Positions 1,987 to 22,124 of a DNA stretch of 44,891 nt are shown here, in pieces; position 1 is the stretch's first letter; each line of letters starts with the position of its first letter. The notes below the pieces were generated by a model that was not told the origin of the DNA, searched no databases, and worked only from the letters and a program-made list of their open reading frames with translations. Position numbers and translations under genes: made by a program. The DNA is from Armatimonadota bacterium (GTDB lineage: Bacteria > Armatimonadota > Chthonomonadetes > Chthonomonadales > CAJBBX01): positions 1-44,891 of the forward strand of contig JAPLCQ010000011.1 of assembly GCA_026392115.1 (NCBI GenBank), written 5' to 3'.

Positions 1987-2125
1987 GTGGCTCCGCTCCT
2001 CCCGGCCCTGTTGGGCGCGCACTACGGTTCGGCACGGCAGGGCGGCTCTCCTGCGCCCGGCAGGCCGATCGGCGAGGATCGCAATCCGCGCAGGAGTTCA
2101 GCGACGCCGCGGCCAAACTACGGGC

Positions 2126-5100: not shown

Positions 5101-5158
5101 CAACCTCGGCGGCGACTGGATGAGCGTGGACCGGTACGTCTTCCGTGGGTTGCGGTAG
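2126..5158 (+). CDS. Secreted GH42-like beta-galactosidase-family protein
   Basis: This 1010-residue protein starts at 2126, where a hydrophobic signal peptide (MIPLHLIALALAAPAPAALP) begins; the frame is open further upstream but codes there for an arginine-rich stretch unlike a leader. Residues about 20-190 look like a jelly-roll carbohydrate-binding module. Residues about 215-560 are a GH42/GH-A type TIM barrel with candidate catalytic glutamates E335 (in YGEVHY) and E498 (in MLEHVGPP). Residues about 570-760 resemble the GATase-like trimerisation domain of GH42 enzymes, followed by beta-sandwich tails. GH42 members release terminal beta-galactose from oligosaccharides. Substrate cannot be read from sequence. 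It lies between a divergent GH36-like gene and a co-directional GH gene that has its own LacI-controlled promoter. Confidence 0.72.
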   Translation: MIPLHLIALALAAPAPAALPVADFEAGLCGWRTNDAGYVSKASPAPTLVGIRTVPAGSGRSLEVRFKAGQGWANAYLEAGDLGFGWAQRRAGGLRFRLRGNGLTARVQVGVQAWAGSFTDPAFFAAPLPSATDRWQVVTVSFDDLQRTNAARKLRLPELISVQFHVSGDLPEVTFEVDDIEVVTGVGGSPGLWENPWETGAPRPPAFGLPRIGNWNYPGRDAHAMAECKRLGIGFSSNDDRAVVQQSVFAQGIVTNFSVGRPTPAELLDGLNLAPGDMDQDAAGGRTGEGIESSVFHPGVIDRFCRFVSDRVRARASMPWVGACTLFSPISMYGEVHYAPSAAGRFAVFSRPAQENYRNWLKRAYGSDPARLAKAWGRPVASWEAVKPPEGPTAPAGSIDSRTEWSDFMHWYSGWLDEVTWRSLQAARKETDKPLAAMIGGPKIGLSQGIAQGNIGPVVRMLGRVKPSFFNDTDSQTLFSGRYTRAACSQYGVKLMLEHVGPPFLEPYHQIDMVTNVLACGADLAHFAHWGELFDDKHWFARMWRGLMPEIASRRTSHVRSDAAMFHSFVTSWYRPERGNGDCVALYDSTNTLWHAEKGYPSWGRALGSPDVVDDTMVEDGALAGRRLLVIPNTGVTVTTRKAADAIARWVRSGGTLVGYGPGCLAQVVEADRSLRANAGMLGLIPASKLGSAWRAGRSAAEARVGKGRVLLYPYPADPERPGAGGLTCAQEAMPELRRLVRETGVRVWCRTDADPEVQVMYAGQDASSGRRLFVADFVRAVKNGLPAPIYLRDRTVKVAFHPSLRGKAELFGITDAFVSCTGGTATYKPETGALSVKFDLPRALTLRFGPARNGLEAARHPMLLWQNGDLTLRGPDGYGVPQTQEPITVGADGSLTPTSARVLYLVHGELHRPKFGRGPTFRVALAKPGEFVVRVNSVTTAGALLTIDLDGKEVLRRPLPDRDGQGAPNAGEYAESVAIPLPPGEHTIRVDNLGGDWMSVDRYVFRGLR

Positions 5159-5176
5159 GAGGGCCTCGCCCAGGGC

Positions 5177-5205
5177 TTGACCCTCGTCGTCCGCGCGGTC
5201 ATAAT
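5177..5205 (+). promoter_or_regulatory. Sigma-70-type promoter of the DUF5060/GH gene
   Basis: TTGACC at 5177-5182 and CATAAT at 5200-5205 are separated by 17 bases, an ideal housekeeping-sigma layout. The predicted transcription start falls near 5212, inside the LacI-type operator at 5210-5227, so bound repressor would block initiation. Confidence 0.7.
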
Positions 5206-5209
5206 GGCT

Positions 5210-5227
5210 TCATGTAACCGTTTCAAG
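5210..5227 (+). promoter_or_regulatory. LacI-family operator, copy 1
   Basis: TCATGTAACCGTTTCAAG contains the near-palindrome TGTAAC-C-GTTTCA, the typical shape of LacI-family sites. The same 18 bases occur in reverse complement at 10009-10026, next to the LacI-family gene. The site sits just after the -10 box of the promoter at 5177-5205. Confidence 0.8.
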
Positions 5228-5301
5228 GCGCGCGGAGACGGCATTATCTCGGGCTGTCCTCGCGCAGGGAGTGATATGCTGCAGGGAGGCACGATACCGC
5301 G

Positions 5302-7554
5302 ATGCGATCATGGCGCCGTCGGGCGCGCTGGCCACTCGTTCCATGGTCGGCGCTTGCGCTTGTCTGCCTGGCCGCCGGCGGAGTGCCGGCCGATGCGTCC
5401 GTGATCACGCTCAAGAGCGGGATGCCGAGCACAGTCGCCCGGTTCGCCCGAGGGCAGATCACCTTCCTGCTGGATCGCCCATACACCAACCCATACGATC
5501 CCGCGGAGGTGGATGCACGAGCCGTCTTCACGGCGCCGTCCGGTCGGCGGATCGTGGCTCACGCCTACGCATTCCGGCCCTACTCGAAGGCCGACATAGA
5601 GGGCGGTGCGGCCACGGCGGCTCCGCTCGGAGACATGGTCTGGCAGGTGCGCTTCTCGCCGGCCGAGGTGGGGCGCTACCGGGCGGCGCTGGAGGTGGTC
5701 GACTCGACCGGCACAGCGACGCTGGAGCTACCGGGGTTCGAGTGCGTCCCGTCAGGCGATCCCGGGTTCATTCGAGCCGTGGCCGGTCCCAATGGCCGCA
5801 CCGTCTACGAAACAGGCGGTATGTTCCTGCCCATCGGCGAGTGCCTCTGGATGCCCCGGTCGCTGGAGCAGTTCCGCCGGGAGTTCGACCTGTACGCCCA
5901 AAACGGGATGAACTACTTCCGCTTCTTCACCAGCCATGACTCGATGTTCTTCTTCGAGTCCGCCCGCCAACCCACCGGCCAATACGACCAGTTGGCGCTG
6001 AGCCGCCTGGACCGGCTGTTCGAGGAGGCGTCGGCGTGCGGCCTCGCCGTGATGCCCTGCCTGGAGATGTTCGCCGACTTTCGGGTGACACAGCCCTACC
6101 CCTACTGGGACGAGAACCCCTACAACCGCCGCAGCGGCGGCCCCTGCGCGAAGGTGAGCGACTTCTTCACCAGCGCCGACGCCAAGCGGCTCTACAAGAA
6201 TAAGCTGCGCTACTTCGCTGCCCGGTACGGCGCCTACTCGGCCCTCTTCTGCGTCCAGTTGTTCGCGGAGGCCAACTATACCGAGAACTACGATATGGCG
6301 GCGGTTCGGTCATGGCACAAGGAGATGGCCGGGTACCTGCGCTCCATCGATCCATACCGCCATCTGATCTCCACCAGCATGGCGGCCTGGGACTCGCAGG
6401 ACAAAGCGCTCTTCGCGCTGCCCGAACTGGACCTTGTCCTCAACGAGGTCTACAACGCCTGCGACTTCGCGGCCGAGTTGTCGCAGGACAACGCCGAGAT
6501 TCTAAAACGCTACCGCAAGCCCGTGTTCCTGGCGGAGACCGGCATCACCTTCGAGTACTTCGTGGCCAACGATCCAACCGGCGTCCACATCCACAACAGC
6601 ATCTGGGCCAACCCCATGTCGGGTGGCGTAGGCGTTCCCAGCTTCTGGTGGACCTCCTACATCCGGGAGCGGAATCTCCTGCCGCACTTTGGCGCCTTCG
6701 CCCGGTTCATGGCCGGTGAGGACCTCGTGGGACTCCGTCCGGTCGCGCCGCGTGTGACGGTGAAGCGCGACGACAGCGTACACCCGGACCTGATCCTCAC
6801 CTTCCCATACCAGGATCCGCCCGGTGCGAAGGGCCCGCAGACCATCGAGTTGCGCAACGACCGGCACCCGACCGCCGAGATAGCCAATCTGCCGCGCAAC
6901 CTATACGGGCGTACGGGTGCCGATGGTCGCCCGAGCTCGGCGCACAACCCGCTGACACTCGTGACGGACTTTGCCGCCGACGGCGCCCTCAACATCCATC
7001 CGCGCTGGGTGGGGGCGCCCGCCTCCGCCGAAGCTGAGCTTCATGTCACGATCGACGGCGCTCCGGCCAAGGTGATCCGCTACACCGGTTGCGCGATGGA
7101 CGACTGGACGGCTTTCCTGGCGAAGTCGAAGGAAGTCTGCGTGGTGACCAGCGTGCCGGTGAGCAAGGGGCGACACCGCATCGTGCTTGACAACCACGGC
7201 AGCCTGTTCGTCAGCGCGGCGCTGGACCTGACCAACTACCTCAAGAGCAGCGTGCCGAACCTCCGGGTCCTCGGCATGGGCGACTCGCGGCGCGCATTCC
7301 TTTGGCTGCAGAACCGCGACAACACCTGGTGGCGGAACGCCCAGGGCAAGCGACCCCGCAGGCTGGCGGGCGCACAGGTCAACCTGCCCGATATGGAGGC
7401 CGGCGCCTACGAGGTCGAGTGGTGGGATACGTACAGCGGAGCCCCGATCCGCCGCCAACGCCTCAACTGCACCGGCGGCATTCTGCGGATTCCCGTGGAG
7501 CCGCTCGATACCGACACTGCATGCAAGGTTCGGCGCGTGGGCGGGACGCCGTAG
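5302..7554 (+). CDS. Secreted DUF5060/GH5-like glycoside hydrolase
   Basis: The 750-residue product starts with a positively charged signal peptide (about residues 1-32). Residues about 40-150 match the DUF5060-type beta-sandwich often found before GH5/DUF4038-like barrels. The barrel follows, with candidate acid/base E323 in LFAEANY and candidate nucleophile E412 in FLAETG. A C-terminal beta-sandwich region (about 500-750) probably binds sugar. A GGAGG site lies 12 bases before the ATG. Its promoter carries an operator identical to the one beside the LacI-family repressor gene 4 kb away, so it is probably induced with the DUF6785/URO-D genes. It ends 66 bp before a convergent lipoprotein gene, with a strong hairpin between them. 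Exact glycosidic substrate is unknown. Confidence 0.78.
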   Translation: MRSWRRRARWPLVPWSALALVCLAAGGVPADASVITLKSGMPSTVARFARGQITFLLDRPYTNPYDPAEVDARAVFTAPSGRRIVAHAYAFRPYSKADIEGGAATAAPLGDMVWQVRFSPAEVGRYRAALEVVDSTGTATLELPGFECVPSGDPGFIRAVAGPNGRTVYETGGMFLPIGECLWMPRSLEQFRREFDLYAQNGMNYFRFFTSHDSMFFFESARQPTGQYDQLALSRLDRLFEEASACGLAVMPCLEMFADFRVTQPYPYWDENPYNRRSGGPCAKVSDFFTSADAKRLYKNKLRYFAARYGAYSALFCVQLFAEANYTENYDMAAVRSWHKEMAGYLRSIDPYRHLISTSMAAWDSQDKALFALPELDLVLNEVYNACDFAAELSQDNAEILKRYRKPVFLAETGITFEYFVANDPTGVHIHNSIWANPMSGGVGVPSFWWTSYIRERNLLPHFGAFARFMAGEDLVGLRPVAPRVTVKRDDSVHPDLILTFPYQDPPGAKGPQTIELRNDRHPTAEIANLPRNLYGRTGADGRPSSAHNPLTLVTDFAADGALNIHPRWVGAPASAEAELHVTIDGAPAKVIRYTGCAMDDWTAFLAKSKEVCVVTSVPVSKGRHRIVLDNHGSLFVSAALDLTNYLKSSVPNLRVLGMGDSRRAFLWLQNRDNTWWRNAQGKRPRRLAGAQVNLPDMEAGAYEVEWWDTYSGAPIRRQRLNCTGGILRIPVEPLDTDTACKVRRVGGTP

Positions 7555-7568
7555 CCACCCGATGGAAA

Positions 7569-7608
7569 GCCCGAGGGGTCCGCCACACACCGTGACGGAC
7601 CCCCGGGC
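7569..7608. terminator. Bidirectional terminator hairpin between convergent genes
   Basis: The arms GCCCG-A-GGGGTCCG (7569-7582) and CGGACCCC-CGGGC (7596-7608) pair over 13 bp with one bulged A and a 13-base loop. It sits between the stop of the GH gene (7554, +) and the stop of the lipoprotein gene (7621, -). The flanking T-runs are short, so factor help is possible. Confidence 0.7.
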
Positions 7609-7620
7609 GATCAGAAGGCC

Positions 7621-7866
7621 CTATCCTCCAGAGCCGGAGGGGGCCTGTCCGTTCACCTTGTTCTGGAACCCGGCGGGCGGACCCGATGGCCCCCGCATCG
7701 CGCCCGAAGGCGGGCCGCCGGGCTGGCCCGGTCCACGGTACTGCGGCGGCGGGGCCGTCTTTGCCCAGTCCTCCTCTTTGTCGCCGAGCTGCTCCTTCTG
7801 CGTCGAGCACCCGGCCAGCGATATGGCGATGAGGCAGGCGCCCAAGCCCAACTGGAGTGCCCTCAT
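7621..7866 (-). CDS. Small proline/glycine-rich lipoprotein
   Basis: This is an 81-residue protein with a leader ending in the lipobox LAGC, so the cysteine should be lipidated. The mature part is short, charged at first (KEEDWAK) and then rich in Pro and Gly, with no known domain. The start at 7866 is chosen because GAGGAGGA lies 5 bases before it; an ATG at 7881 is also in frame but has no comparable site. It follows the pseudopilin gene after 27 bp on the same strand, so the two are probably co-transcribed. Small lipoproteins of this kind beside DUF1559 pseudopilins are common in this type of genome, but the function is unknown. Confidence 0.7.
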   Translation of the reverse strand: MRALQLGLGACLIAISLAGCSTQKEQLGDKEEDWAKTAPPPQYRGPGQPGGPPSGAMRGPSGPPAGFQNKVNGQAPSGSGG

Positions 7867-7893
7867 TGCTGTCCTCCTCAATCGGCGCTCCCG

Positions 7894-8736
7894 CTACTGG
7901 GTCCGCGTGGCGTCCCACATGTAGAAGAACGGCCCGATGCATCCGCAGTTGTTCTGGGCGTTGGCCTTGACGGTCGTGCGCGGCCTCATCGACTTGGCGT
8001 GTCCGTCAGCGAACGCGAAGTTGCCCATGCCCGAGTGTACGACCGCGATGGCGCCGTCCGAGCTGGGATCCGGCTGCGACCATGTGCCGTCGCCGGTCTG
8101 AATCTGGCCTGGGAGCGACTGGCCGGCGTCCGCGCCGTCGCCGCCGATGAGCACGGCGTTCCACGGGCTGAATGCGCCGTGCATGGGCGGGTTCTCGCCG
8201 TTCAGCCAGGAGCCCGGGGGCATCTTGTGGCGCTCGGCGAACATGATGGTCTCCGCCGACAGGTTCACGCCCGCCAGCGTCTGCGGCGTCATATCGAACC
8301 AGTTGCGGGATGCGTTGATCACCCCGAGGAACTTCCACTGCCAGGTCGGCGCTCCGCAGGTGCCGCCGATGATGCCGTTGGCCACGTAGCTGAACGCCGG
8401 GCCGGACCAGTCCGCCACCTTGTGGTTGTCGCTGGGACAGCGGAAAGCCGCGAAGTTCTTCATGTACGGCTGGGTATGCATGAGCCAGGTCAACTGCCAG
8501 CCCCAGCCGTTGGCGGCCTGCGGCTCGCCTTCGGCGCAGAAGGTCTCGTCGTAATCCTGCGTGTACATGAGGCTGGCCAGAGCCACCTGCTTCATGTTGC
8601 TCAGGCAGGAGGTCTGCCGTGCTTTCTCGCGTGCCTGTGCGAACACAGGGAACAGGATCGCCGCCAGAATGGCGATGATCGCGATAACGACCAGGAGTTC
8701 GATCAGCGTGAAGGCCGACCGTTTGGTGCGCACCAT
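7894..8736 (-). CDS. DUF1559-type pseudopilin with H-X9-DG motif
   Basis: The 280-residue protein has a type IV prepilin leader: a short basic head, then [19 protein letters not shown], with cleavage expected before the phenylalanine. The hydrophobic helix is followed by [14 protein letters not shown] and CLSNMKQ, a signature seen very often in Armatimonadota. Near the C-terminus [12 protein letters not shown] gives the H-X9-DG processing-associated motif. These proteins are thought to be exported by a type II secretion or type IV pilus-like machine and are highly multiplied in such genomes. Their role is not established. GAGGAGGGG lies 8 bases before the ATG. It is 82 bp downstream of the LacI-family gene on the same strand, so read-through is possible. 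Confidence 0.93.
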
Positions 8737-12227: not shown

Positions 12228-13358
12228 ATGACATCCCGTGAGAGGCTGCAGTGCGTGCTGCGAGGGGGTATCCCCGACTGCGTGCCCGTATGCCCCGACA
12301 TTTCGAACATGGTTCCGGCGCGACGCACCGGTAAGCCCTTCTGGGACATCTACCTCTACAACGATCTGCCGCTCATGGACGCGTACATCGATGCCGCCCG
12401 CCACTACGGCTTCGACGCCTTCATGGACCTCTTCCCGCTCACCTTTCCCGAGGAGGCCGCTGGAGCCGAGGGATTGGAGCGCTATATCGTCCGCCGCACG
12501 GAAAGCGCGATCACCACGCGGCTCTGCCGCAAGGAGGGAGGCAAGCGGACCTGGAGCCCCACCGTGGATGTCTTCCCGGTGGCCGATCCGCCCACCCACG
12601 GTGTGGACCCGGCCAAGGTTGGCCTGCCGTCGGTTCCCGAGCGCTTCGAGCCGGTAGAGGGCGTGCGGCCCTTCGACACGGGGCCTGCGGGCTTTCAGCG
12701 GATCAAGCGGCGCATGGGGGATCAGGGCCTGGTGGGCGTTTACGTCACCTACTCGGCCGTTCTCGGCAACCCGGACATGATTTACCACTACCTCGACAAC
12801 CCCGACCTGCATGAGCAGTGGGCCGAAGAGCGCGTGCGGGTCGCCGAGGAGCGCTTCGCCCGTGTGATGGCCATGGAGGAGAAGCCTGACTTCATCTGCG
12901 TGGGAGGCTCAGGCACTCTGGTCTTCCAGACGATGGAGATCTTCCGCCAACTGGCCTTCCCGGCGGTGAAGCGCGTCATCGACCTGGCCACTGAGGCGGG
13001 CCTGCCCACGCACATACATTCCTGCGGCCCGGAACGTGAACTGGTGCGCGTCATGGCCGAGGAGACAAACCTGACCCTCATCGATCCGCTGGAGACGCCG
13101 CCCATGGGCGACTGCGATCTGGCCGAGCTGAAGCGGCTCTGGGGCGGCAAGCTGACGCTGAAGGGCAACCTGCACACGACCGAGGTCATGCTGATGGGCA
13201 GCCCTGAGGACGTGGCCCGAGCCTCGCGCAAGGCGATCGACGACGCGGCCGAGGGCGGGCGGTTCATCCTCTCCACAGGCGACCAGTGCGGACGGGACAC
13301 CCCCGACGCCAACCTGGAGGCGATGATCGAAACCGCCCGCACCTACGGCCGCTACTGA
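12228..13358 (+). CDS. URO-D-family protein, zinc methyltransferase-like (MtaA/CmuA group)
   Basis: This 376-residue protein belongs to the uroporphyrinogen decarboxylase superfamily. It lacks the N-terminal RxPVWxMRQAG signature of true HemE. It does keep what looks like the zinc triad of the corrinoid methyltransferases MtaA, MtbA and CmuA: H264 and C266 in HSCG, and C354 in GDQCG near the C-terminus, followed by TPDANLEAMIE. This favours methyl transfer between a corrinoid protein and an acceptor rather than heme synthesis. AGGAGA lies 11 bases before the ATG. It follows the DUF6785 gene, a pairing that recurs in polysaccharide-degrading lineages, and probably shares its LacI-controlled promoter. 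No corrinoid protein is encoded nearby. Its last 7 bases overlap the convergent GH gene. Confidence 0.8.
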   Translation: MTSRERLQCVLRGGIPDCVPVCPDISNMVPARRTGKPFWDIYLYNDLPLMDAYIDAARHYGFDAFMDLFPLTFPEEAAGAEGLERYIVRRTESAITTRLCRKEGGKRTWSPTVDVFPVADPPTHGVDPAKVGLPSVPERFEPVEGVRPFDTGPAGFQRIKRRMGDQGLVGVYVTYSAVLGNPDMIYHYLDNPDLHEQWAEERVRVAEERFARVMAMEEKPDFICVGGSGTLVFQTMEIFRQLAFPAVKRVIDLATEAGLPTHIHSCGPERELVRVMAEETNLTLIDPLETPPMGDCDLAELKRLWGGKLTLKGNLHTTEVMLMGSPEDVARASRKAIDDAAEGGRFILSTGDQCGRDTPDANLEAMIETARTYGRY

Positions 13359-16300
13359 GCCCTGCGCCGGAGCGTCACCCGCACCACCTCGCCGAAGGGG
13401 GTCCAACCCGCTGCCACCAGGCGGAGCGTGACCCGCGTTTCGCCGGCTTGGCCCGCCGGCAGGACGCCCTTGAAGCGGCCGTCGGCGAGGAAGGGCGTAT
13501 CGGTCGCCAGCGGGATGAGGGCCTTGCCCCCGTCCCAGGTTGCCTCGAGGTAGACGCCGCCGGCCTCCTGTCCCGGGCCTTTCGGGGCCAGCCAGGAGGC
13601 CTCGGCGGTGTTGCCCATTTCGGCCTCGAGCGCCACGTCCTCACCGGCTCGGAGGTCGATCACGGCTCCGTCTCCGGCGTCGCGCCCGCCGATGCGGAGG
13701 CGGTTCAACTCGGCGTTCAGGTACTTGGGCGGGTTGGAGCCGGTGGCGGGCACGTTGCCCACGGCCACCCTCGGCGCGTTGGCCGACGTGGTTCCCGCGG
13801 CCTCGGTGCGGACGCCCGGCGACTTGCCCTGCAGGAACGCGGCAACCCAGGCCGGCGCGGCCTCGGCGTAGAGGCCCGAGAAGCCGGTGGCGTGCTTGTC
13901 ACGGTCCACGGTGATCAGGACGTCGGGCCTGGGCGCCGGACCCAGCCTCCGCATGGCGGGCGCCACGACCTGATAGACCTCGGCCGCCGGGCGCGGCGTG
14001 CCGTCGGGCTGGATAATGCCGAAGTCGCTCTTCTCGTCTACGCGCAGGCCGCCGGGCCACCACCAGCCCGCTGCGCCGTCGGCCCCCGTCTCGCGCACCA
14101 TGGCCAGCGTCTTGCGATAGTAGTCGGCCGACTGCTGCAGGTTCTCGGTCAGGAGGGCGTGGGTGTAGGCCTCCGGGCTCACGCCGTAGAAGAGCGCCGA
14201 CCCGAACTCCGCCCAGTAGACCGGCTTGCCGCCGCTGTAGTAGCGCCCGTAGGCGTTGAGGAAGCCTCCGCTGAGGAAGCCCTTGCGGTCGCCGCCGATG
14301 TTGTAGCCCTCCGGCGACGTGAAGTCCAGGTGCTTGGCGCCGCTGCGGAGGTCCACCGGCAGGTGGCCCTGGGTCCAGAGCGCCCCAAGTCCGCCCCATC
14401 CGCTGCGGGCGCCCATGAGATGCCGCGGGTCGACCTCGCGCACGGCGCGCCGAACCGCTTGGTAGCCGCGCGAGAAATTGTCGTCCCAGAAGCGCCGGTA
14501 CGCGGCGGTGAAGACGCGCCACGGGCCGTCGGTGGTGAGCAGGTCGTCGGCCGGGCCGGTGAGGAGGCCCCCGTCGGTTCGGGGCGCCGCGTAGCTCCAG
14601 TCCTTCTCGGCGGCCGCCTCGCTGCCGTAGCGGTCGGCTACCCAGCGCCGCCACTCGCCGTCGTGCGGTTTCCGCGCCGCGTAGGGCCCCACATGGACCT
14701 CCCAGCCCAGGTCGTAGGCGAAGACGGCGGGGTCGTCGTCCAGTCGTGCGGCGCGGATCATCTCCTGCGCCAGGGCGGGCTGATGCGTCACGGGGTCCAG
14801 GTGGGGCAGGAAGATGTGCGCCTTGATGCCCCGCTTCTCGCACCGGGCCAGGAATTCGGCCAGCGGGCGGGCCTGGTCCAGGCGCCCGTACTGGATGCTC
14901 ACCAGGTTCATGCCCAGCCGCTGCATCTGCGCCAGGTCGCGCTCCACCACGGCGGGGTCGTACTGGTCGGGAGAGAGCCAGTGGAGCCAGTACTCGCCCG
15001 GCTCCTGCCCGGCGGAGTAGAGAGGCCAGTAGTTGATGCCGAGCGCGAACCAGGGCTTGCCGCCGAGCATGAAGCGGCCGCCGGACGCCGTGACCGTGTT
15101 CTTTTCGGTGGCCCTGCCCTGTGTCAACACGCGGAACGGCATGGCGAGGCGGTCCACGTCGGAGCCGTCAGTTCGCAGTGCCACCTCCGCGACGTACTCG
15201 CCCGGCTCCGGCGAACCGACGGAGGCGAGGTCGACGGCCATCGGTTGCACGGTATGCGCGGCCACGGTGACCTTCTGCCGCGTGCGCCGCGGGAGGCCGT
15301 CGGGCCCCCGCACGGAGGCGACGACCGTCACCTGTGCGGGCTTCGAGCCGAGGTTCACCAGCCGGGCGCCCACCGTCACGGGCTCGCCGACGAAGCCGGC
15401 GAAGCTCTCGGCGCCCGCGGACGCCAGGAAGAGCCCGCGGGCCATGCGCCGGGCCATCTCCGCCGCCACGGCGGGATAGGGCGACCCGGCCGCGGCCAGC
15501 GCGGACTGCGACACGCCGAGGAGGGCCCAGACCGAGCCCCGGTACGAACCGTCGAGGTTCAGCAGGAGGTGCGCCGCCGCGCCGCGCCGCTGGCCGGCCG
15601 CCTTGTCCATGGCCCAGAGCACCGGCACGAACCGGGCCGCGGGTGGCCTGAGGCCCAGCCCCGGCGACCGCGAGATGGCGCAGATGACGGGCCAGGCGGC
15701 GCGCAGCCGACGGCCGCGGCCGGCGGGCAGGACCGTGTCGGCTCTGGTCGGGTAGGTCTTGTACGCCGGCGAGAGGGTCTCCAGCAGCGGCGGGTTCAGG
15801 TCCACCGCGCCCACCGGGTCCACGGCGGTCTGGAGGTCGGCCACCCAGTACTCGTGGGCGGTGCCCATCTCCTGGTGCGAGAGGCCGTTGGCCAGGCCGA
15901 AGGTGAACTGCCGGGCGCGCTCGGGGTTCATGCGGTCGCCGTTGCCGCCCCTGCCGCGCGCGGCGCCGTCGGGCCAGAAGGTCATCTCCTCGGCGCGTAT
16001 GGCGTAGCGCGTCCACTTCGGCGCAAGCTTCACGGTGGACATCCAGCGGGTGCCGTCGGCCTCCTTCCACTCGACGAGCAGTTCGGGCGTCTTCGGTCCG
16101 CCCTTTGCCCAGAAGGTGGTCAGCGTGCGCCCGCCGTTGAAGGGGGCATCCAGCGCATGGCTGCCCAGCGTATCCCACGTGTCGAGCTTGGCGACCCGAA
16201 CGTGGACGGCCGTGGCGCCGCCGGGGCCGCCCGGCTCCGTCAGGTATACGGCCTCGCTGCCTGCGGTGCCCGTCACGCGGGTCCAGCGCTTCAGCTCGGC

Positions 16301-16756
16301 CGGATCGAAGCGAACCACGGGCGTCCCCGCGGCCTCGGCCAGCTTGGCCTGCAAGCCCGCCCGGCCGGCCCACTTGCCGCCCACCCGTACGCGCATCTCC
16401 TGGAAGGGTGGACCGGAGAGCGCCAGCAGATGATTGCCGCGATTCAGGAACCGCAGCAGCGGCTCCCGCGCAGGCGCCGGGAACGCCGGCGAATAGGGGA
16501 GCGCCAGCGTGACGCCGGGCCCTCCTTCGGCGTCCAGGGCTGCGGCCAGGCCCTCCGCGCTCGTGTCGCGGCACTGGAGCCCCGCCGCCGTCAGGGCCCG
16601 GCGCAGCGCCGGAACGACGGCCTCGGCGGAGCCCTCGAAGCGTTCGGTGAGCAGGATCACCCGGCCCAGCGGGGGCTCGGCGGCACCGGATGGCGCTGAG
16701 GCTGCCAGCGAGGCCAGCCCGGCAGTGAGGCCCGCGAGAACGATGCACCAGGTCAT
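13352..16756 (-). CDS. Large secreted TIM-barrel glycoside hydrolase
   Basis: The product has 1134 residues with a signal peptide (MTWCIVLAGLTAGLASLAAS). Residues about 30-130 look like a small alpha/beta domain, about 150-300 a beta-sandwich and about 480-575 an Ig-like fold. A GH-A clan barrel begins near residue 590 at FMLGGKPWFALGINYWP. Candidate catalytic glutamates are E686 (in DLGWEVHVGPY) and E850 (in VYWAEFGSA). A beta-sandwich closes the protein. GGAGGAG lies 5 bases before the ATG. The first 67 codons and the upstream region are duplicated at 20811-21087, directly after the PL22 gene. This implies that the gene was once the third cistron of that operon and was separated by the 16834-20810 insertion. 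It could now be transcribed only from its own or island promoters. GH family and substrate are not resolved. Confidence 0.75.
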   Translation of the reverse strand: MTWCIVLAGLTAGLASLAASAPSGAAEPPLGRVILLTERFEGSAEAVVPALRRALTAAGLQCRDTSAEGLAAALDAEGGPGVTLALPYSPAFPAPAREPLLRFLNRGNHLLALSGPPFQEMRVRVGGKWAGRAGLQAKLAEAAGTPVVRFDPAELKRWTRVTGTAGSEAVYLTEPGGPGGATAVHVRVAKLDTWDTLGSHALDAPFNGGRTLTTFWAKGGPKTPELLVEWKEADGTRWMSTVKLAPKWTRYAIRAEEMTFWPDGAARGRGGNGDRMNPERARQFTFGLANGLSHQEMGTAHEYWVADLQTAVDPVGAVDLNPPLLETLSPAYKTYPTRADTVLPAGRGRRLRAAWPVICAISRSPGLGLRPPAARFVPVLWAMDKAAGQRRGAAAHLLLNLDGSYRGSVWALLGVSQSALAAAGSPYPAVAAEMARRMARGLFLASAGAESFAGFVGEPVTVGARLVNLGSKPAQVTVVASVRGPDGLPRRTRQKVTVAAHTVQPMAVDLASVGSPEPGEYVAEVALRTDGSDVDRLAMPFRVLTQGRATEKNTVTASGGRFMLGGKPWFALGINYWPLYSAGQEPGEYWLHWLSPDQYDPAVVERDLAQMQRLGMNLVSIQYGRLDQARPLAEFLARCEKRGIKAHIFLPHLDPVTHQPALAQEMIRAARLDDDPAVFAYDLGWEVHVGPYAARKPHDGEWRRWVADRYGSEAAAEKDWSYAAPRTDGGLLTGPADDLLTTDGPWRVFTAAYRRFWDDNFSRGYQAVRRAVREVDPRHLMGARSGWGGLGALWTQGHLPVDLRSGAKHLDFTSPEGYNIGGDRKGFLSGGFLNAYGRYYSGGKPVYWAEFGSALFYGVSPEAYTHALLTENLQQSADYYRKTLAMVRETGADGAAGWWWPGGLRVDEKSDFGIIQPDGTPRPAAEVYQVVAPAMRRLGPAPRPDVLITVDRDKHATGFSGLYAEAAPAWVAAFLQGKSPGVRTEAAGTTSANAPRVAVGNVPATGSNPPKYLNAELNRLRIGGRDAGDGAVIDLRAGEDVALEAEMGNTAEASWLAPKGPGQEAGGVYLEATWDGGKALIPLATDTPFLADGRFKGVLPAGQAGETRVTLRLVAAGWTPFGEVVRVTLRRRAQ

Positions 16757-16833
16757 GTGGCTCCTCCGGCCGGGCTCATCGCCGGCGGTCCTCCACGGTC
16801 AGCCGCCCGGAGACGGTCAGTTCGCGCGTCTCG
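16557..16833. repeat. 277-bp direct repeat, left copy
   Basis: This segment matches 20811-21087 without gaps: 262 of 277 bases agree, and nine of the fifteen differences fall in one run of 24 bases (the signal-peptide cleavage region of the GH gene). It holds the first 66 codons of the intact GH gene, its ribosome site, and the last 18 codons of the PL22 gene. The two copies bracket the 4-kb island. Confidence 0.92.
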
Positions 16834-16850
16834 CGGCGGCGCGACATTGG

Positions 16851-18443
16851 CTACTCGGCTGGATTATACACACACCGAAACACACAGCTTCTGCAATCAA
16901 ACGTAGTGTCAACACCGTCATATGTCAGAGGCAGTTCATTGCGATAGTAGCACCCCGGATGCTCGAGCGTCCATGAACCGAACGTGCCACCCCTCACAGA
17001 ATGGACCCAACCGGTCTCAGGTCCCGGTGGATTCGAACCCGGCGCCTCGGAGTAGTAGGTCTGACTGAACCAGTCGTTGCACCACTCCAACTGCCGGCCC
17101 AGCATTCCAGCGCAACCATACGGTGAGGTCCGCAGTCGAAGCTCATCTGCTGTGCCCTCCTGCCACTCATTCCCCCATGGATATAGGTACCCGTCCGAGC
17201 CACGAGCCGCCTTCTCCCACTGGGCCTCGGATGGCAGAGCAACTCCAGCCCATTCCGCATACGCTCGCGCCGCATGCCACTCGACCGACGGCATTGGATC
17301 ACTATCGAGCCAGCGTTCAGGGTTCCCAGGCAGATAAAAAGTTCGACCAGTGGCAGCGCAAAATCTCTTGAACTGCAGTATCGAGACGGCTCTTGTGTAT
17401 ATCCAAAAGCCACTTAGGTACACGACTCTCTGCGGCATACAAGAAGGCTTGGCGCACGGATCCGTGTGCCTGGCACCCATTATGAACTGGCCGCTGGGCA
17501 CCCACATTAGCTGCGAACCATCACACGGATTAACCGTATAGTCGCCTATAGAATTTCCAACACCTGGAGGCCAGCCACAGGATGCAGGCGCAGTGGAACC
17601 CGCCTGCGAGATGATAGTTTCCCACGAGCTACGGTGCTGCGTGTCCAACTTTAGGCAACCATCAATAATATGCCCCAGGGGATAGGGAAGAGCGTCACGG
17701 ATGATGGGCAGGCCAGTCGTCAGCGCTGTGTAGTCAGCGACAGAGCTGCAGTCGCACGGAAGGGCCCCAGTCAGGCATTCCAGCAGTACCGCTCCAAGGG
17801 CCCAGACATCGCACAACGGATCGGCCTCACCTGCCTGTAGCTGGGGCGAGCAATACCGGCTGGCACTGCGACTGAGCACCCCGTTGGACCGGTCTAGGCT
17901 GTTCGGTGTGGCTGGCATACCATCCACCATGCCTTTGGCCGCTATTCCGATGTCGGCCAGCTTCCATACACGGCCCGCGCACACGATGCTTGAGGGGGTC
18001 AGGTTACCGTGCACCAACGTCATGTCTGACAGAAATCGGATCGCTTCTGCGATATGCCGCGCAATAATTATAGTCTCCGCGGCCGACAAGTGACCACATC
18101 GAATCAGCTTGCCACGCAAAGTATCGTCAGCAAGTTCAGTCGCTATGTAAAGAAAGACTGGTAGTGTTTGTGAATGGAACTCACCAGCACCGCGAAACGT
18201 TACGATATTGGGATGCGAGACGCCGGCTAGTGCACGGGCTTCGTTCACCACACGGTCGCGCGAATCACCGTCGCGGGGCGAGTACATCCGCAACTCGACA
18301 GGTCCTACGGCGTGCCCATCGACGATCTCGTTTGCCAGGTACCGACAACCGGCGTCGCCCACCGCCGCCGCTCGTCCTGTGATGCGGTACCTACCGCCAA
18401 CGACCAAACCGATCAGGCTCTGTCCGGCTTCTGCTTTGGTCAT
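16851..18443 (-). CDS. Pseudokinase fused to an FGE-like (C-type-lectin-fold) domain, copy 1
   Basis: The product has 530 residues and no signal peptide. Residues about 18-280 follow the protein-kinase fold: GRYRITGR at the start, a likely alpha-C glutamate E68, HGNLTPSSIV at 145-154, DIG at 164-166 and DVWALGAVLLECLTG at 212-226. The HRD aspartate is replaced (HGN at 145-147) and the beta-3 lysine position reads VELRMY, so catalysis is doubtful. Residues about 305-525 are a formylglycine-generating-enzyme-like domain (MWVPSGQFIMG, LPSEAQWEKAARG, YPWGNEW, LEWCNDWF, VRGGTF). The two active-site cysteines of true FGE are not both present, so a ligand-binding lectin-type fold is likelier. GGAG lies 8 bases before the ATG. 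Its paralogue ends 90 bp upstream. Confidence 0.85.
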   Translation of the reverse strand: MTKAEAGQSLIGLVVGGRYRITGRAAAVGDAGCRYLANEIVDGHAVGPVELRMYSPRDGDSRDRVVNEARALAGVSHPNIVTFRGAGEFHSQTLPVFLYIATELADDTLRGKLIRCGHLSAAETIIIARHIAEAIRFLSDMTLVHGNLTPSSIVCAGRVWKLADIGIAAKGMVDGMPATPNSLDRSNGVLSRSASRYCSPQLQAGEADPLCDVWALGAVLLECLTGALPCDCSSVADYTALTTGLPIIRDALPYPLGHIIDGCLKLDTQHRSSWETIISQAGSTAPASCGWPPGVGNSIGDYTVNPCDGSQLMWVPSGQFIMGARHTDPCAKPSCMPQRVVYLSGFWIYTRAVSILQFKRFCAATGRTFYLPGNPERWLDSDPMPSVEWHAARAYAEWAGVALPSEAQWEKAARGSDGYLYPWGNEWQEGTADELRLRTSPYGCAGMLGRQLEWCNDWFSQTYYSEAPGSNPPGPETGWVHSVRGGTFGSWTLEHPGCYYRNELPLTYDGVDTTFDCRSCVFRCVYNPAE

Positions 18444-18533
18444 CTGTCATGCTCCGCGTGCACGCCGAGCGACCAGTTGTGCGCCCACACGCCAGATGCC
18501 GAGGGCCTCAGCGAGAAGAGTGAGCGGTGTCGG

Positions 18534-20165
18534 TCAGCAGGCGCAACGGAAACCAACGTCGTCCCTCCGTTCAGCGGGTTCGCACGGGTATCTGAGCGCT
18601 AGACGCATGTACCTTGAGCCCGCGAATGCCCATACCTCTTGCACAGACTTGAACGCGAGAAATGCCCGTACGTCGGCCTCAGTCGGCGTACTCCACGCCC
18701 CTCCCCTGCACACGCGGAGCCTTCCGGTGTGTGGACCGACCGGATCCAGATCGCGCTGAGATGCGTAGTGCTGATCAGCAAACCAATCAGCGGACCACTC
18801 CCAGACATTGCCAACCAAGTCCACGAAGCCGTGTGCTCCATCACTTACCTGCTGTGCCGTGACGTGCTCTGGGCCTGACCGTTTTATGCGTACTGAGCAG
18901 ATGCACTCGCGCTCCCGCCAAGGATCACCCCAAGGGTACTGGAAACCTCCCGCCCGCCCGCGAGCCGCGTATTCCCACTGAGCCTCCGTAGGCAGCCTGG
19001 CGTGCGCCCACTGGGCGTATGCCGCCGCATCGTGCCACGTTGCGCAGACCATCGGGTACGCATCACCCCATCCCCACGGCGGTGTCAGATCGTCCCAAGG
19101 GAAGCCGTGGCCGGTGGCAGTGCAGAATTGCCGGAACTGGGCGACCGTCACAGGCAACCTGTACATCCAGAATCCGGTCATCCGGGTGCGGCGCTGAGGG
19201 GTCTCACAGGCATATGCACAGGAATCGCTCTCAGGCGAACCCATGAAGAACACCCCCGGGGGGATCCACGCCATATCGGCACCGTCAACAGGGTTCGCCG
19301 TGAAGGTGCGGACATCGGCTGGAGGCAGCGGTGGCCACGTCTGGGACGGCATGACGCGGTACGATGCATAGCTTGTGCAACGACTGTGGGCTCGCCCCTC
19401 GGCTCCAGCAATGCCGTCGTCGTCGATGCCGCAAGCTTGCAGTATCTCTGGCACGCTCCGAGGTGACGCAGGGAGCAGTCGCGGCTCGACCGCGTCCTGC
19501 GGAAGCATCGGCGAATGGCTCAAGCATGCGTCAAGCACATCGCGATGCCCCAACACGTCAATGGCTGGTGTTCTAGCCGCCTCTGTCCGGCTGATCCCCG
19601 ACGCTAGGCCCGGCAGGCTTCGGTCGTTGGCAGCAATGGTCCGCGCAGTTGCGTCTGCCGCGGGCGATGCCCAGCCAAGCGCGAAGCAGTCAAGTTTCCA
19701 CACAGAACCGACGCGCACAATGCTCTGCTCTGTCACGCGGACACGCCGTACAGCCCGAGAGTCAAGATAGGCCTGAGCGGCAGACACATCCTGCGCCAGA
19801 GTACGTGCCTCGCCCTTGGTCAGGCTACCACGATTGCGGAGCAGCGAGGCCAATGAGTGGTCGTACGGCTCTAGTGCAACGAAGACCGCTGCAGTCACGC
19901 GCCCGCCCGCGATCATGCCTGCGCCGCGGTACCGAATCAAGTTGGCATGACTCCATGAGACGATCGCCAGCACGTCGAGCAAGGCGGAGGCGGCGACTGC
20001 TGTGTCTTGACACAGATTGAGCCAGACCACGGCGCGACCAATGACGCCTCCAAACGCCAGTTCATCAGCGGAATATAGCCACTTATGCACACCGGCGTCC
20101 CGGACCGCCGTAAGCCTATACCTACCGTCTAGCACATCACCAACAAACGATTCTGGTAAGACCAT
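18534..20165 (-). CDS. Pseudokinase fused to an FGE-like (C-type-lectin-fold) domain, copy 2
   Basis: The ATG at 20165 (GGGAG 8 bases upstream) is preferred because its product begins just before VGDVLDGRYRL, aligning with copy 1; the frame is open up to an ATG at 20384 but the extra 73 residues look non-coding. The 543-residue product has a strongly degraded kinase region (about 14-245). HRD is replaced by RVR (141-143), no DFG is recognisable after VWKL, and the C-lobe is shortened. Residues about 290-543 are the FGE-like domain, with IPPGVFFMGS, LPTEAQWEYAARG, YPWGDPW, GNVWEWSADWF, CRGGAW and VGFRC. After RGGAW (487-491) the segment to residue 520 is longer than usual and hydrophobic. The FGE cysteine pair is absent, so I infer ligand binding, not formylglycine formation. 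Confidence 0.82.
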   Translation of the reverse strand: MVLPESFVGDVLDGRYRLTAVRDAGVHKWLYSADELAFGGVIGRAVVWLNLCQDTAVAASALLDVLAIVSWSHANLIRYRGAGMIAGGRVTAAVFVALEPYDHSLASLLRNRGSLTKGEARTLAQDVSAAQAYLDSRAVRRVRVTEQSIVRVGSVWKLDCFALGWASPAADATARTIAANDRSLPGLASGISRTEAARTPAIDVLGHRDVLDACLSHSPMLPQDAVEPRLLPASPRSVPEILQACGIDDDGIAGAEGRAHSRCTSYASYRVMPSQTWPPLPPADVRTFTANPVDGADMAWIPPGVFFMGSPESDSCAYACETPQRRTRMTGFWMYRLPVTVAQFRQFCTATGHGFPWDDLTPPWGWGDAYPMVCATWHDAAAYAQWAHARLPTEAQWEYAARGRAGGFQYPWGDPWRERECICSVRIKRSGPEHVTAQQVSDGAHGFVDLVGNVWEWSADWFADQHYASQRDLDPVGPHTGRLRVCRGGAWSTPTEADVRAFLAFKSVQEVWAFAGSRYMRLALRYPCEPAERRDDVGFRCAC

Positions 20166-20810
20166 CAGCTCAGCTCCCGCCCCATTGCGTATATCCGTCA
20201 GGCACCGCCATCGAAGAGGAACCACCGCGCTACCGGCTAGCCGTGTGGCCGAGCGCCATCGACCGGAACCGTTGCCACCGTGCGTTCCGGTGCTCCATGC
20301 GCAGTCGGCGTCCAAGCAAGGAGTCGCGGACGGGAGTGGTGCACGGCAGAGCAGGCGACCCTCAGACCATAGCGATTCTAGCACCGAGTATGCCTGCTAT
20401 TGCTTATGCGCGACGAGTGCATCCGGCCAAGTACAAGGGCCCCAACGCCACCTGAGGCTGATTGCCCCTGTGCCAGCTTAGCAGATGACGGCCTTGGCCA
20501 GTCTGGGTTCACTGTGCACCTTGTCGGCGCGACTGGCCGGACCGATGGGATGGCCGGCGTTCACACATGGCTACAGGAACTGCTCTACCGGAGGGAACTG
20601 CCGATGGGCGGCCTCCGCGCTATGCTTGCCCGGGCCTGTGATGTACAGGCCGAACAGCCATATGGCGACTATCAGCAAGCAACCGCATACCGACACCGGT
20701 GCACATCCCTGTCTAAGGCTCTAAGGCACCTGCGTGCCAACTGCTCAGGGATCGGTTGTCCTGTCTCCACTATGGTCATCCTCCGTCCTCTTGCCCATCT
20801 ACAGAGTCAG
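20166..20810. other. Non-coding stretch upstream of the pseudokinase genes
   Basis: About 645 bp hold no convincing gene on either strand. A plus-strand frame (20400-21263) runs from here through the right repeat and antisense into the PL22 gene, so it is probably chance. I looked for a copy of either gene's 3' end, as a template repeat would be, and found none by eye. The promoter of the two island genes should lie here. Confidence 0.5.
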
Positions 20811-21010
20811 GCGCCCGTGTCGCGGCACTGGAGCCCGGCCGCCGTCAGGGCCCGGCGCAGCACCGGAACGACGGCCTCGGCGGAGCCCTCGAAGCGTTCG
20901 GTGAGCAGGATCACCCGGCCCAGAGGAGACTCCGCCGCCTCGGCAGGCGCTGAGGCCGCCAGCGAGGCCAGCCCGGCAATGAGGCCCGCGAGAACGATGC
21001 ACCAGGTCAT
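20807..21010 (-). pseudogene. Truncated duplicate of the GH gene 5' end
   Basis: From the ATG at 21010 the frame reads as the first 66 or so residues of the GH protein at 13352-16756, with a few substitutions (for example APAEAAESPLGR for APSGAAEPPLGR). It then leaves the repeat and meets TGA at 20807-20809. The ATG lies 19 bp after the PL22 stop codon, preserving the ancestral operon junction. The product would be a signal peptide plus about 40 residues and is unlikely to be functional. Confidence 0.88.
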
Positions 21011-21087
21011 GTGGCTCCTCCGGCCGGGCTCATCGCCGGCGGTCCTCCACGGTCAGCCGCCCGGAGACGGTCAGTTCGCGCATCTCG
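20811..21087. repeat. 277-bp direct repeat, right copy
   Basis: This is the partner of 16557-16833 at a constant offset of 4254 bp. It contains the truncated GH start and the intact 3' end of the PL22 gene. Homology stops sharply at both ends: at 20811 the island begins, and at 21087 only the true PL22 gene continues. Confidence 0.92.
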
Positions 21088-22124
21088 TCGCTCACATGGG
21101 CCAGGTAGGCCTGCGGCACGCCGGTGCGATCAGAGTTGAAGATCACCATGCGCCCGTCGGGGCTGAACTGCGGGTGCGGGTGCGTCATCTGGGCGTGGCC
21201 CTGCGAACTCCGCGGCAGGCAGAGCGCGCGGAAGTGGCCCGTGGGCACGTGGATCAGCTGTAGCCCCTCGTCGGGCCAGTTGGTGTCGGTCACGATCCAG
21301 TCGCTGTCGAGGCTTGCGGCTGAGTGCCAGAAGGTGCGGCCCCGGGCCACAACCGACGGCGTCTCATCGCCCACGCCGATGCGCTGCACCTCCCTGAAGG
21401 GCGGCAGGGCGCACCCCTGCATCTCTGGCTTGCGGCCCAGAAAGGTGCAGTGGGCGAAGTCGTGGCTGGCCGTGAACCGGCCCGCCTGGCGCAGGTCCGC
21501 ATCCAGCAGGAGGTAGTGCTTCACGCCCTGGTGTACCGCAATGGCCAGCAGGCCCGCACCGCCCGGCGAGCAGGAGTGGAGCGAGACGACCCAACCCTCG
21601 TCGGCCTCGTCGACCCGGGCGCCGGCGCCGTCCGTCGCCACGCAGAGGATGCCCAGCGGACGGCTCGGGTCGACCCTGGCCCCGTTCCCCGGCGTCTGTC
21701 CGGCCGTGTAGTAGGTCGATCCGTCCGGCGAGATGAAGCCATGGCCGCCGGTGCAATCTGAACCGTGGCGCAGGACTTCCTCCTCCTGCAGGTCGTCCAT
21801 GCCGATCCGCCAGAGCGCGCCGGGCCGGTTGAAGTAGACGTGCCGCCCGTCCGGCGACATGACGAAGCCCGATGCGTCGTCGCGCTCGGTCATCTGCGTC
21901 AGGTCGGCGCCGTCGGCGTCCACGCGCCAGAGGTCCCACGGCGCCCCGCGCCGCGCCTCGCGCTGGCAGACCAGGATGAGCGTGCGGCTATCCGGCGTGA
22001 AGTTGGTGTTGGCGTACCAGAGGCAGGAGCTGGGCGTGGGGTAGCTGGTGAGCTGGACGATCCGCGCCCCGGTCGCGGCGTCGACGCTCTCCACGCGCTC
22101 GTTCATGCTGAGGCCCTTGGGCAT
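21030..22124 (-). CDS. Oligogalacturonate lyase (PL22-like) beta-propeller
   Basis: The 364-residue protein shows repeated propeller-blade motifs such as FTPDSRTLIL, MSPDGRHVYFN and FSPDGRMVIFNSDRTG. AQMTHPHPQFSPDG supplies Q312, H315 and H317 in the Q-x-x-H-x-H spacing of the metal site of PL22 oligogalacturonide lyases. H267 (WHSAAS) is a candidate fourth ligand. PL22 enzymes cleave unsaturated or saturated digalacturonate by beta-elimination, usually in the cytoplasm, and no signal peptide is present here, in agreement. AAGGAG lies 9 bases before the ATG at 22124. Only 3 bp separate it from the upstream Gfo/Idh/MocA gene, so the two form an operon. The GH gene once followed directly. A generic TolB-like propeller is the alternative if the metal site proves non-functional. 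Confidence 0.82.
   Translation of the reverse strand: MPKGLSMNERVESVDAATGARIVQLTSYPTPSSCLWYANTNFTPDSRTLILVCQREARRGAPWDLWRVDADGADLTQMTERDDASGFVMSPDGRHVYFNRPGALWRIGMDDLQEEEVLRHGSDCTGGHGFISPDGSTYYTAGQTPGNGARVDPSRPLGILCVATDGAGARVDEADEGWVVSLHSCSPGGAGLLAIAVHQGVKHYLLLDADLRQAGRFTASHDFAHCTFLGRKPEMQGCALPPFREVQRIGVGDETPSVVARGRTFWHSAASLDSDWIVTDTNWPDEGLQLIHVPTGHFRALCLPRSSQGHAQMTHPHPQFSPDGRMVIFNSDRTGVPQAYLAHVSDEMRELTVSGRLTVEDRRR

Follow-up and report, generated by a model that had tools for sequence, protein, structure and literature searches.

The window analysed here, a 44,891-nt stretch of contig JAPLCQ010000011.1 from an Armatimonadota bacterium (assembly GCA_026392115.1), carries two adjacent genes on the reverse strand, P0002 and P0001. 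Each encodes an N-terminal kinase-like domain followed by a C-terminal domain resembling the formylglycine-generating enzyme (FGE) in its lectin fold. Both genes lie in a low-GC insert between direct repeats, and catalytic residues were lost preferentially in both kinase halves. The pair is composed as follows, post-RGG denoting the segment behind the RGG motif of the FGE-like fold and DGR a diversity-generating retroelement:

18534 to 20165, reverse strand: P0002, first gene of the pair, 543 amino acids from an ATG start; pseudokinase plus FGE-like (lectin-fold) domain
19434 to 20144, reverse strand: kinase-like domain of P0002; glycine loop, β3 lysine, HRD and DFG all gone, not confidently modelled from about residue 160
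18537 to 19304, reverse strand: FGE-like domain of P0002; 43 of 53 near-invariant core positions, Foldseek matches to FGE at E 3.4e-19
18537 to 18698, reverse strand: post-RGG segment of P0002, where DGR proteins have their variable region; template not found
16851 to 18443, reverse strand: P0001, second gene, 90 bp past P0002, 530 amino acids from an ATG start; pseudokinase plus FGE-like domain
17604 to 18416, reverse strand: kinase-like domain of P0001; VELR, HGN and DIG, Foldseek matches to PknA/PknB
16854 to 17546, reverse strand: FGE-like domain of P0001; 44 of 53 near-invariant core positions
16854 to 16985, reverse strand: post-RGG segment of P0001; template not found

A Shine-Dalgarno-like motif lies 8 nt ahead of each ATG (GGGAG at 20174-20178 for P0002, GGAG at 18452-18455 for P0001). 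Using Pfam, the FGE-sulfatase domain PF03781 was matched in P0001 (E 2e-27) and P0002 (E 5.5e-41), and the protein kinase domain PF00069 in P0001 (E 1.1e-17). P0002 has no Pfam kinase domain match; its kinase homology was determined with phmmer against two intact kinases of relatives (1.6e-28 for the kinase of G001, and 2e-27) and from its modelled N-lobe. The fusion of the two folds, proposed for both genes in a first-pass annotation of this DNA, is thereby confirmed. In PADLOC, P0001 matches many defence kinase models (top PD-T4-6 at 9.5e-24), which is read as probable generic kinase similarity; P0002 gave no match.

The kinase halves were aligned with nine kinases from relatives. P0001 has VELR instead of VAVK (β3 lysine to arginine), HGN instead of HRD, the changes K149T and N152S, DIG instead of DFG, and alanine for the first glycine of the glycine loop; the αC glutamate, the aspartate and glycine of DFG and two glycines of the loop are retained. 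P0002 has VVWL (β3 lysine to tryptophan), aspartate for the αC glutamate, RVR for HRD and CFA for DFG. Counting the β3 lysine, the HRD aspartate and the DFG aspartate, two of three are lost in P0001 and three of three in P0002. The catalytic aspartate and the β3 lysine are present in 9/9 reference kinases, one of which is slightly off type (HLD and DFT). Of 61 near-invariant kinase columns, 38 are kept in P0001 and 23 in P0002, and among the reference kinases between 51 and 61 of the filled columns are conserved, one partial row filling 54. The losses cluster: at 18 catalytic positions, picked by the author from general knowledge of the Hanks motifs, P0001 keeps 7 compared to 31 of 43 structural positions (Fisher p 0.021), and P0002 keeps 2 compared to 21 of 43 (Fisher p 0.008). 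The loss of the HRD aspartate from each protein and of DFG from P0002 agrees with the first-pass annotation, and so does the prediction, made from these motifs, that both halves are non-catalytic. No replacement lysine or aspartate was found in the aligned motif columns, which were checked in the alignment and not residue by residue in the models. Sequencing error as the source of the motif loss was rejected, because the nearest relatives with intact HRD and DFG are only about 20-39% identical to the pair.

From 17 kinase and 90 FGE stretches, overlapping copies from the window included, 50 rows were used for structure models and 13 kinase rows for a kinase tree. The AlphaFold2 model of P0001 (mean predicted local distance difference test, pLDDT, 79.2; predicted template modelling score, pTM, 0.58) has a confident bilobal kinase fold and an FGE fold, both matched in the PDB; the kinase part was matched by Foldseek to PknA/PknB (best E 2.7e-14, target template modelling score up to 0.79). 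In the model of P0002 (mean pLDDT 78.0, pTM 0.56) the N-lobe and the FGE fold are confident, and the C-lobe is mostly not (block pLDDT mostly 28-54 over residues ~160-280), where a partly misplaced C-lobe of the kinase-only rows in the underlying alignments may depress confidence. Thus, the earlier view that both folds are kept applies to the FGE folds and to the kinase of P0001, but not to the larger part of P0002's C-lobe. Given the pTM values, the inter-domain placement in both models is unreliable.

The FGE-like halves are better preserved. The FGE core is kept better than the kinase columns in P0001 (44/53 vs 38/61, p 0.021) and in P0002 (43/53 vs 23/61, p 3.5e-6). A further match of P0002 is to a solved variable protein from Treponema, 2y3c (E 3.6e-9), and both proteins share with DGR variable proteins a lectin-fold C-terminus that ends in the segment which is variable there. 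The first-pass annotation had located the greatest divergence of the two copies after the RGG motif. Indeed, P0001 and P0002 are identical at 5 of 33 aligned post-RGG columns and at 77 of 185 FGE core columns; however, mean pairwise identity across the family is 31% post-RGG and 52% in the core (41 rows, 820 pairs), so that this divergence is ordinary for a segment which is more variable family-wide. Within ~25 residues past RGG, where we take the catalytic cysteine pair of true FGE to lie, one cysteine is found in P0001 and none in P0002, hence the pair is absent as annotated. FGE-like binding domains normally lack these cysteines, and their absence is no evidence of a special pair of proteins.

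Relatives were searched with P0001 in 41 genomes, of which two, G001 and G002, belong to the same genus. At E ≤ 1e-20, the matches spanning most of both domains were P0002 and two genes of G008; one G001 match (residues 117-324) reaches from the kinase just into the FGE half. Extending the search to 291 genomes of the phylum (E ≤ 1e-42, scoring at most five candidates from each) gave no protein spanning both domains other than P0002 and these two genes of G008. A GTDB scan with P0001 gave 23 loci, with all best segments within the FGE half. The kinase tree places P0001 and P0002 beside the operon kinases of G001 and G009 (support 87/89, which is not strong); since both sit on very long branches, this placement is a lead and not proof.

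The related kinases of G008, G009 and G001 adjoin a Clp-type AAA_2 ATPase, a vWA protein, a PP2C phosphatase and a coiled protein, accompanied in G008 and G001 by a radical SAM NrdG-like protein; these annotations were made with Pfam and NCBIfam on the G001 copies and by reading translations in the other genomes. At E ≤ 1e-60, 4 of the 41 genomes have the AAA+ gene of this operon, and in 4/4 a relative of the P0001 kinase is on the same contig, as in G034, where AAA+ and kinase share one contig. The operon loci L065, L062 and L060 also hold an MSGTPKY-type protein without Pfam match, and kinases with or without FGE or Sel1-like repeats; the NrdG-like protein is found at L065 and L060. A brief search of the open-access literature retrieved no description of a Clp-type AAA+/vWA/PP2C/radical-SAM operon. 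No copy of the AAA+ gene was detected at E ≤ 1e-60 in the pair's own genome (G000, 98.6% complete), and neither AAA+ nor vWA was matched when eight neighbouring genes of the window were scanned. Membership of the pair in a complete conflict operon within the window was consequently rejected.

The insert and its surroundings are arranged as follows:

16834 to 20810: low-GC insert of 3,977 bp, containing the two genes and, upstream of them, ~645 bp in which nothing was recognised
16557 to 16833: left copy of the 277-bp direct repeat, with the 3' tail of gene C and the 5' start of gene D
20811 to 21087: right copy of the 277-bp direct repeat, including an orphan start of gene D
21030 to 22124: gene C, oligogalacturonate-lyase-like (Pfam)
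13352 to 16756: gene D, no Pfam match

The GC content of the insert is 0.609, compared to a mean of 0.690 for other 3,977-bp stretches of the window (standard deviation 0.013, minimum 0.662). The two genes have a third-position GC of 0.61 and 0.66, compared to 0.86 to 0.92 for four of their neighbours; across the three codon positions P0001 is flat (0.60/0.54/0.61), gene D is not (0.72/0.55/0.92). The repeat is the junction of genes C and D, and the insert sits between them. The repeat is one uninterrupted, full-length copy in G001 (G001:C117:31429-31701, 90%) and in G002 (G002:C206:24933-25209, 84%); in G001 both flanks continue in line. Beside this junction of G002:C206 (L081), most of gene C (window ~21160-22113) is missing. 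The pair probably arrived on a small piece of foreign DNA. Because the two repeat copies are 95% alike, differing by 5.4%, and each differs by ~10% from G001, the insertion seems to postdate the divergence from G001; the composition and the long branches of the pair seem to predate the insertion. The repeat far exceeds the usual length of a target duplication. One possible source of the 277-bp duplication is single-crossover integration of a circle carrying the stretch.

The insert has no Rfam match to a structured RNA. The ~645-bp upstream DNA has no other match in its own genome below E 0.29, and its best match elsewhere in the 41 genomes is 2.4e-4 over 36 bp. Phage or plasmid records covering 80% of P0001 numbered 0/12 and 0/295 of the matching records, and two IMG/VR scans gave no relative of the pair; no close viral or plasmid relative was found, which does not decide against such an origin. 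When random change was simulated at 2.7%, the amount since insertion, both frames stayed open in 4.3% of trials (P 0.043; indels ignored), and the open frames are weak evidence for selection since then.

A DGR was located elsewhere in the genome, on contig C13 of G000 (L066, 1-6180), with vWA, PP2C and kinase-like ORFs ahead of a lectin-fold target. Its reverse transcriptase, with a template repeat (TR) alongside, has the NCBIfam group II reverse transcriptase as best match (132 bits, under cut-off). The FGE-fold target has an in-frame TAA and the Avd-like frame an in-frame TAG, past which the Avd-like part scores 62.7 bits for DivGenRetAVD (NCBIfam), under the cut-off of 80. Although the variable region (VR) of C13 exceeds the TR by 2 nt, the TR is matched by the genome's other VRs. 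At least five VRs, on C13, C114 (three) and C26, have A-biased mismatches to the TR, for example at 14 of 31 A and 1 of 86 other positions (p 7e-9). A VR on C116 is weaker (18 of 30 A, 22 of 80 others). L010 and L006 have the same score, counts and contig spot and were counted once; L025, L029 and L011 gave no clear VR signal against the TR; L034 of G001 is an almost unmutated TR copy (0 of 31 A, 2 of 85 others). The lectin-fold genes at G000:C114 ~800-8000, where they form a cluster, and the single one at C26 ~54000 (L010, L006, L004, L007, L023), most of which end in GFRCVSPE, are remote targets of one DGR, as their A-biased mismatches to the C13 template indicate.

With these five VRs as positive control, the pair was examined as a DGR target. 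Against the TR, at most 27 columns of the P0001 3' end and 56 columns of the P0002 3' end were aligned; in another comparison with the TR the scores were 50 (shuffle maximum 41.5) and 45.5 (shuffle maximum 52). Searching the own genome with the post-RGG DNA returned only the query itself, below E 5 for P0001 and below E 0.9 for P0002. No template and no other genomic repeat was found for either 3' end, and the pair is not diversified by the DGR here.

Starting from the computed insert with its 277-bp duplication, the kinship to the operon kinases, the catalytically biased loss and the lack of DGR diversification, our best explanation, which we put slightly under even, is that horizontal insertion brought in P0002 and P0001 as orphan paralogues of kinase-lectin sensors, their kinases dead and their role of a scaffold type. 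The kinase halves would derive from regulatory kinases of the Clp-type AAA+/vWA/PP2C/kinase operon and would have lost catalysis, with the FGE-like fold held under tighter constraint. The lectin-like domain would bind a ligand via its post-RGG face, and the kinase fold may relay binding by protein-protein contact, not phosphorylation, possibly as a dimer or by docking on another kinase or a phosphatase target. As in the first-pass annotation, a ligand-sensing pair in which the kinase would serve as scaffold is inferred.

Several results weigh against this explanation. The search for homologous tandem pairs, as suggested at first pass, recovered the two kinase-FGE genes of G008 and no orthologue of the pair, neither genus-wide nor in the 291 genomes (top 4-5 candidates per genome scored), so that conservation of the pair cannot be shown. 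Its core scores of 44 and 43 are low for the family (39 other FGE rows: mean 50.1, range 41-53), in which only 2 of these 39 rows keep ≤ 44 of 53. Branch lengths of the pair are 1.5 and 1.45 in the FGE half (median 0.45) and 2.52 and 4.24 in the kinase half (median 0.7), and long branches of both domains fit relaxed constraint as well as new function.

The main rival, strong although we consider it the less likely, is that the genes are relics, i.e. sensor kinases which lost their operon and are decaying without present function. The missing AAA+ gene in a nearly complete genome, the long branches, the low-confidence C-lobe of P0002, the absence of the insert at this place from two congeners and the flat codon-position GC of P0001 all speak for decay. 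On the other hand, frames of 530 and 543 codons are open and have Shine-Dalgarno-like motifs (the stop-codon argument being weak), the losses cluster at catalytic positions instead of being uniform, and the FGE core is largely retained. It is improbable, in our estimate, that the proteins are dominant-negative decoys, taking up a partner or ligand that an active kinase-vWA-AAA+ defence system, belonging either to the host or to an invader, would otherwise bind. Inactive enzyme decoys have been proposed, and disrupted VMAP kinases reported, for such systems (PMC7159879), and the pair does sit in an acquired insert; however, a cognate active system was not found in the genome via its AAA+ gene, and the phage, plasmid and IMG/VR searches described above were negative. 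Less probable still is that P0001 binds nucleotide or phosphorylates slowly by an atypical route: its αC glutamate, DFG aspartate and glycine, two loop glycines and full modelled fold would allow it, and some pseudokinases with β3 lysine changed to arginine still bind ATP (PMC12599244), but the HRD aspartate, the next lysine and asparagine and the β3 lysine are changed together. That the pair are current targets of the genome's DGR is very improbable, since, despite the C13 locus, at least five A-biased VRs, the same fold and the same position of the variable segment, the TR alignments cover only 27 and 56 columns and no other repeat of either 3' end exists in the genome.

Kinase-lectin fusions have been described before. 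Among cyanobacterial DGR targets, kinase-like domains are the commonest functional domain and are joined to CLec domains, and the lectin domain has been suggested to detect a ligand and thereby regulate the kinase (PMC7517822); those kinases have Hanks motifs I-IX and are diversified by DGR or are paralogues of diversified proteins, while our pair has dead kinases and no template was found. DGR-diversified lectin domains have also been proposed as antigen sensors (PMC10907252). The vWA-MoxR ternary conflict systems (Kaur et al. 2020, PMC7159879) likewise combine vWA and AAA+ with FGS/lectin domains and disrupted kinases; for the VMAP ternary systems, FGS domains are reported and most kinase domains have disrupted catalytic residues. 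In contrast, a Clp-type AAA_2 ATPase is combined with PP2C and a radical SAM protein of NrdG-like type in the operon related to the pair, and the pair itself stands alone. The Clp-like operons of G001, G008 and G009 contain the closest kinase halves, in G008 as two kinase-FGE paralogues flanking the core genes; they differ from the pair in their intact catalytic motifs and in the AAA+ core gene, which was not found in the pair's genome. Chlamydial Ser/Thr kinases with a NirV/DUF323 (FGE-like) C-terminus, noted in 2005 (PMC1262709), have the same two-domain order, a likeness by description and not by sequence. MviN of Mycobacterium is a bacterial pseudokinase with scaffolding and dimerising functions, in a protein that also has a carbohydrate-binding domain, though it is another protein and acts via its phosphorylated tail and FhaA (PMC12599244). 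The main text of that 2025 review of bacterial pseudokinase families does not contain the words formylglycine, sulfatase or lectin. With FGE itself, the C-terminal half shares the fold and lacks the cysteine pair. Kinase-FGE fusions and disrupted kinases are already known, and a stand-alone dead-kinase pair without DGR template is a variant among them.

A further-reaching proposal, to which we give a low probability, is that of a mobile two-gene cassette of dead kinase-lectin receptors working without parent operon or DGR, e.g. as a paired receptor or as a decoy tuning kinase-lectin defence signalling. In bacterial conflict systems, kinase-lectin fusions have been proposed to sense antigens, a role that is mostly untested. 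The analysis records a link between such kinases and a Clp-type AAA+/vWA/PP2C/radical-SAM operon. A stand-alone dead-kinase pair, if true, would separate a binding role from phosphorylation, and it would show whether kinase-lectin sensors work, or act as decoys, outside their operons.

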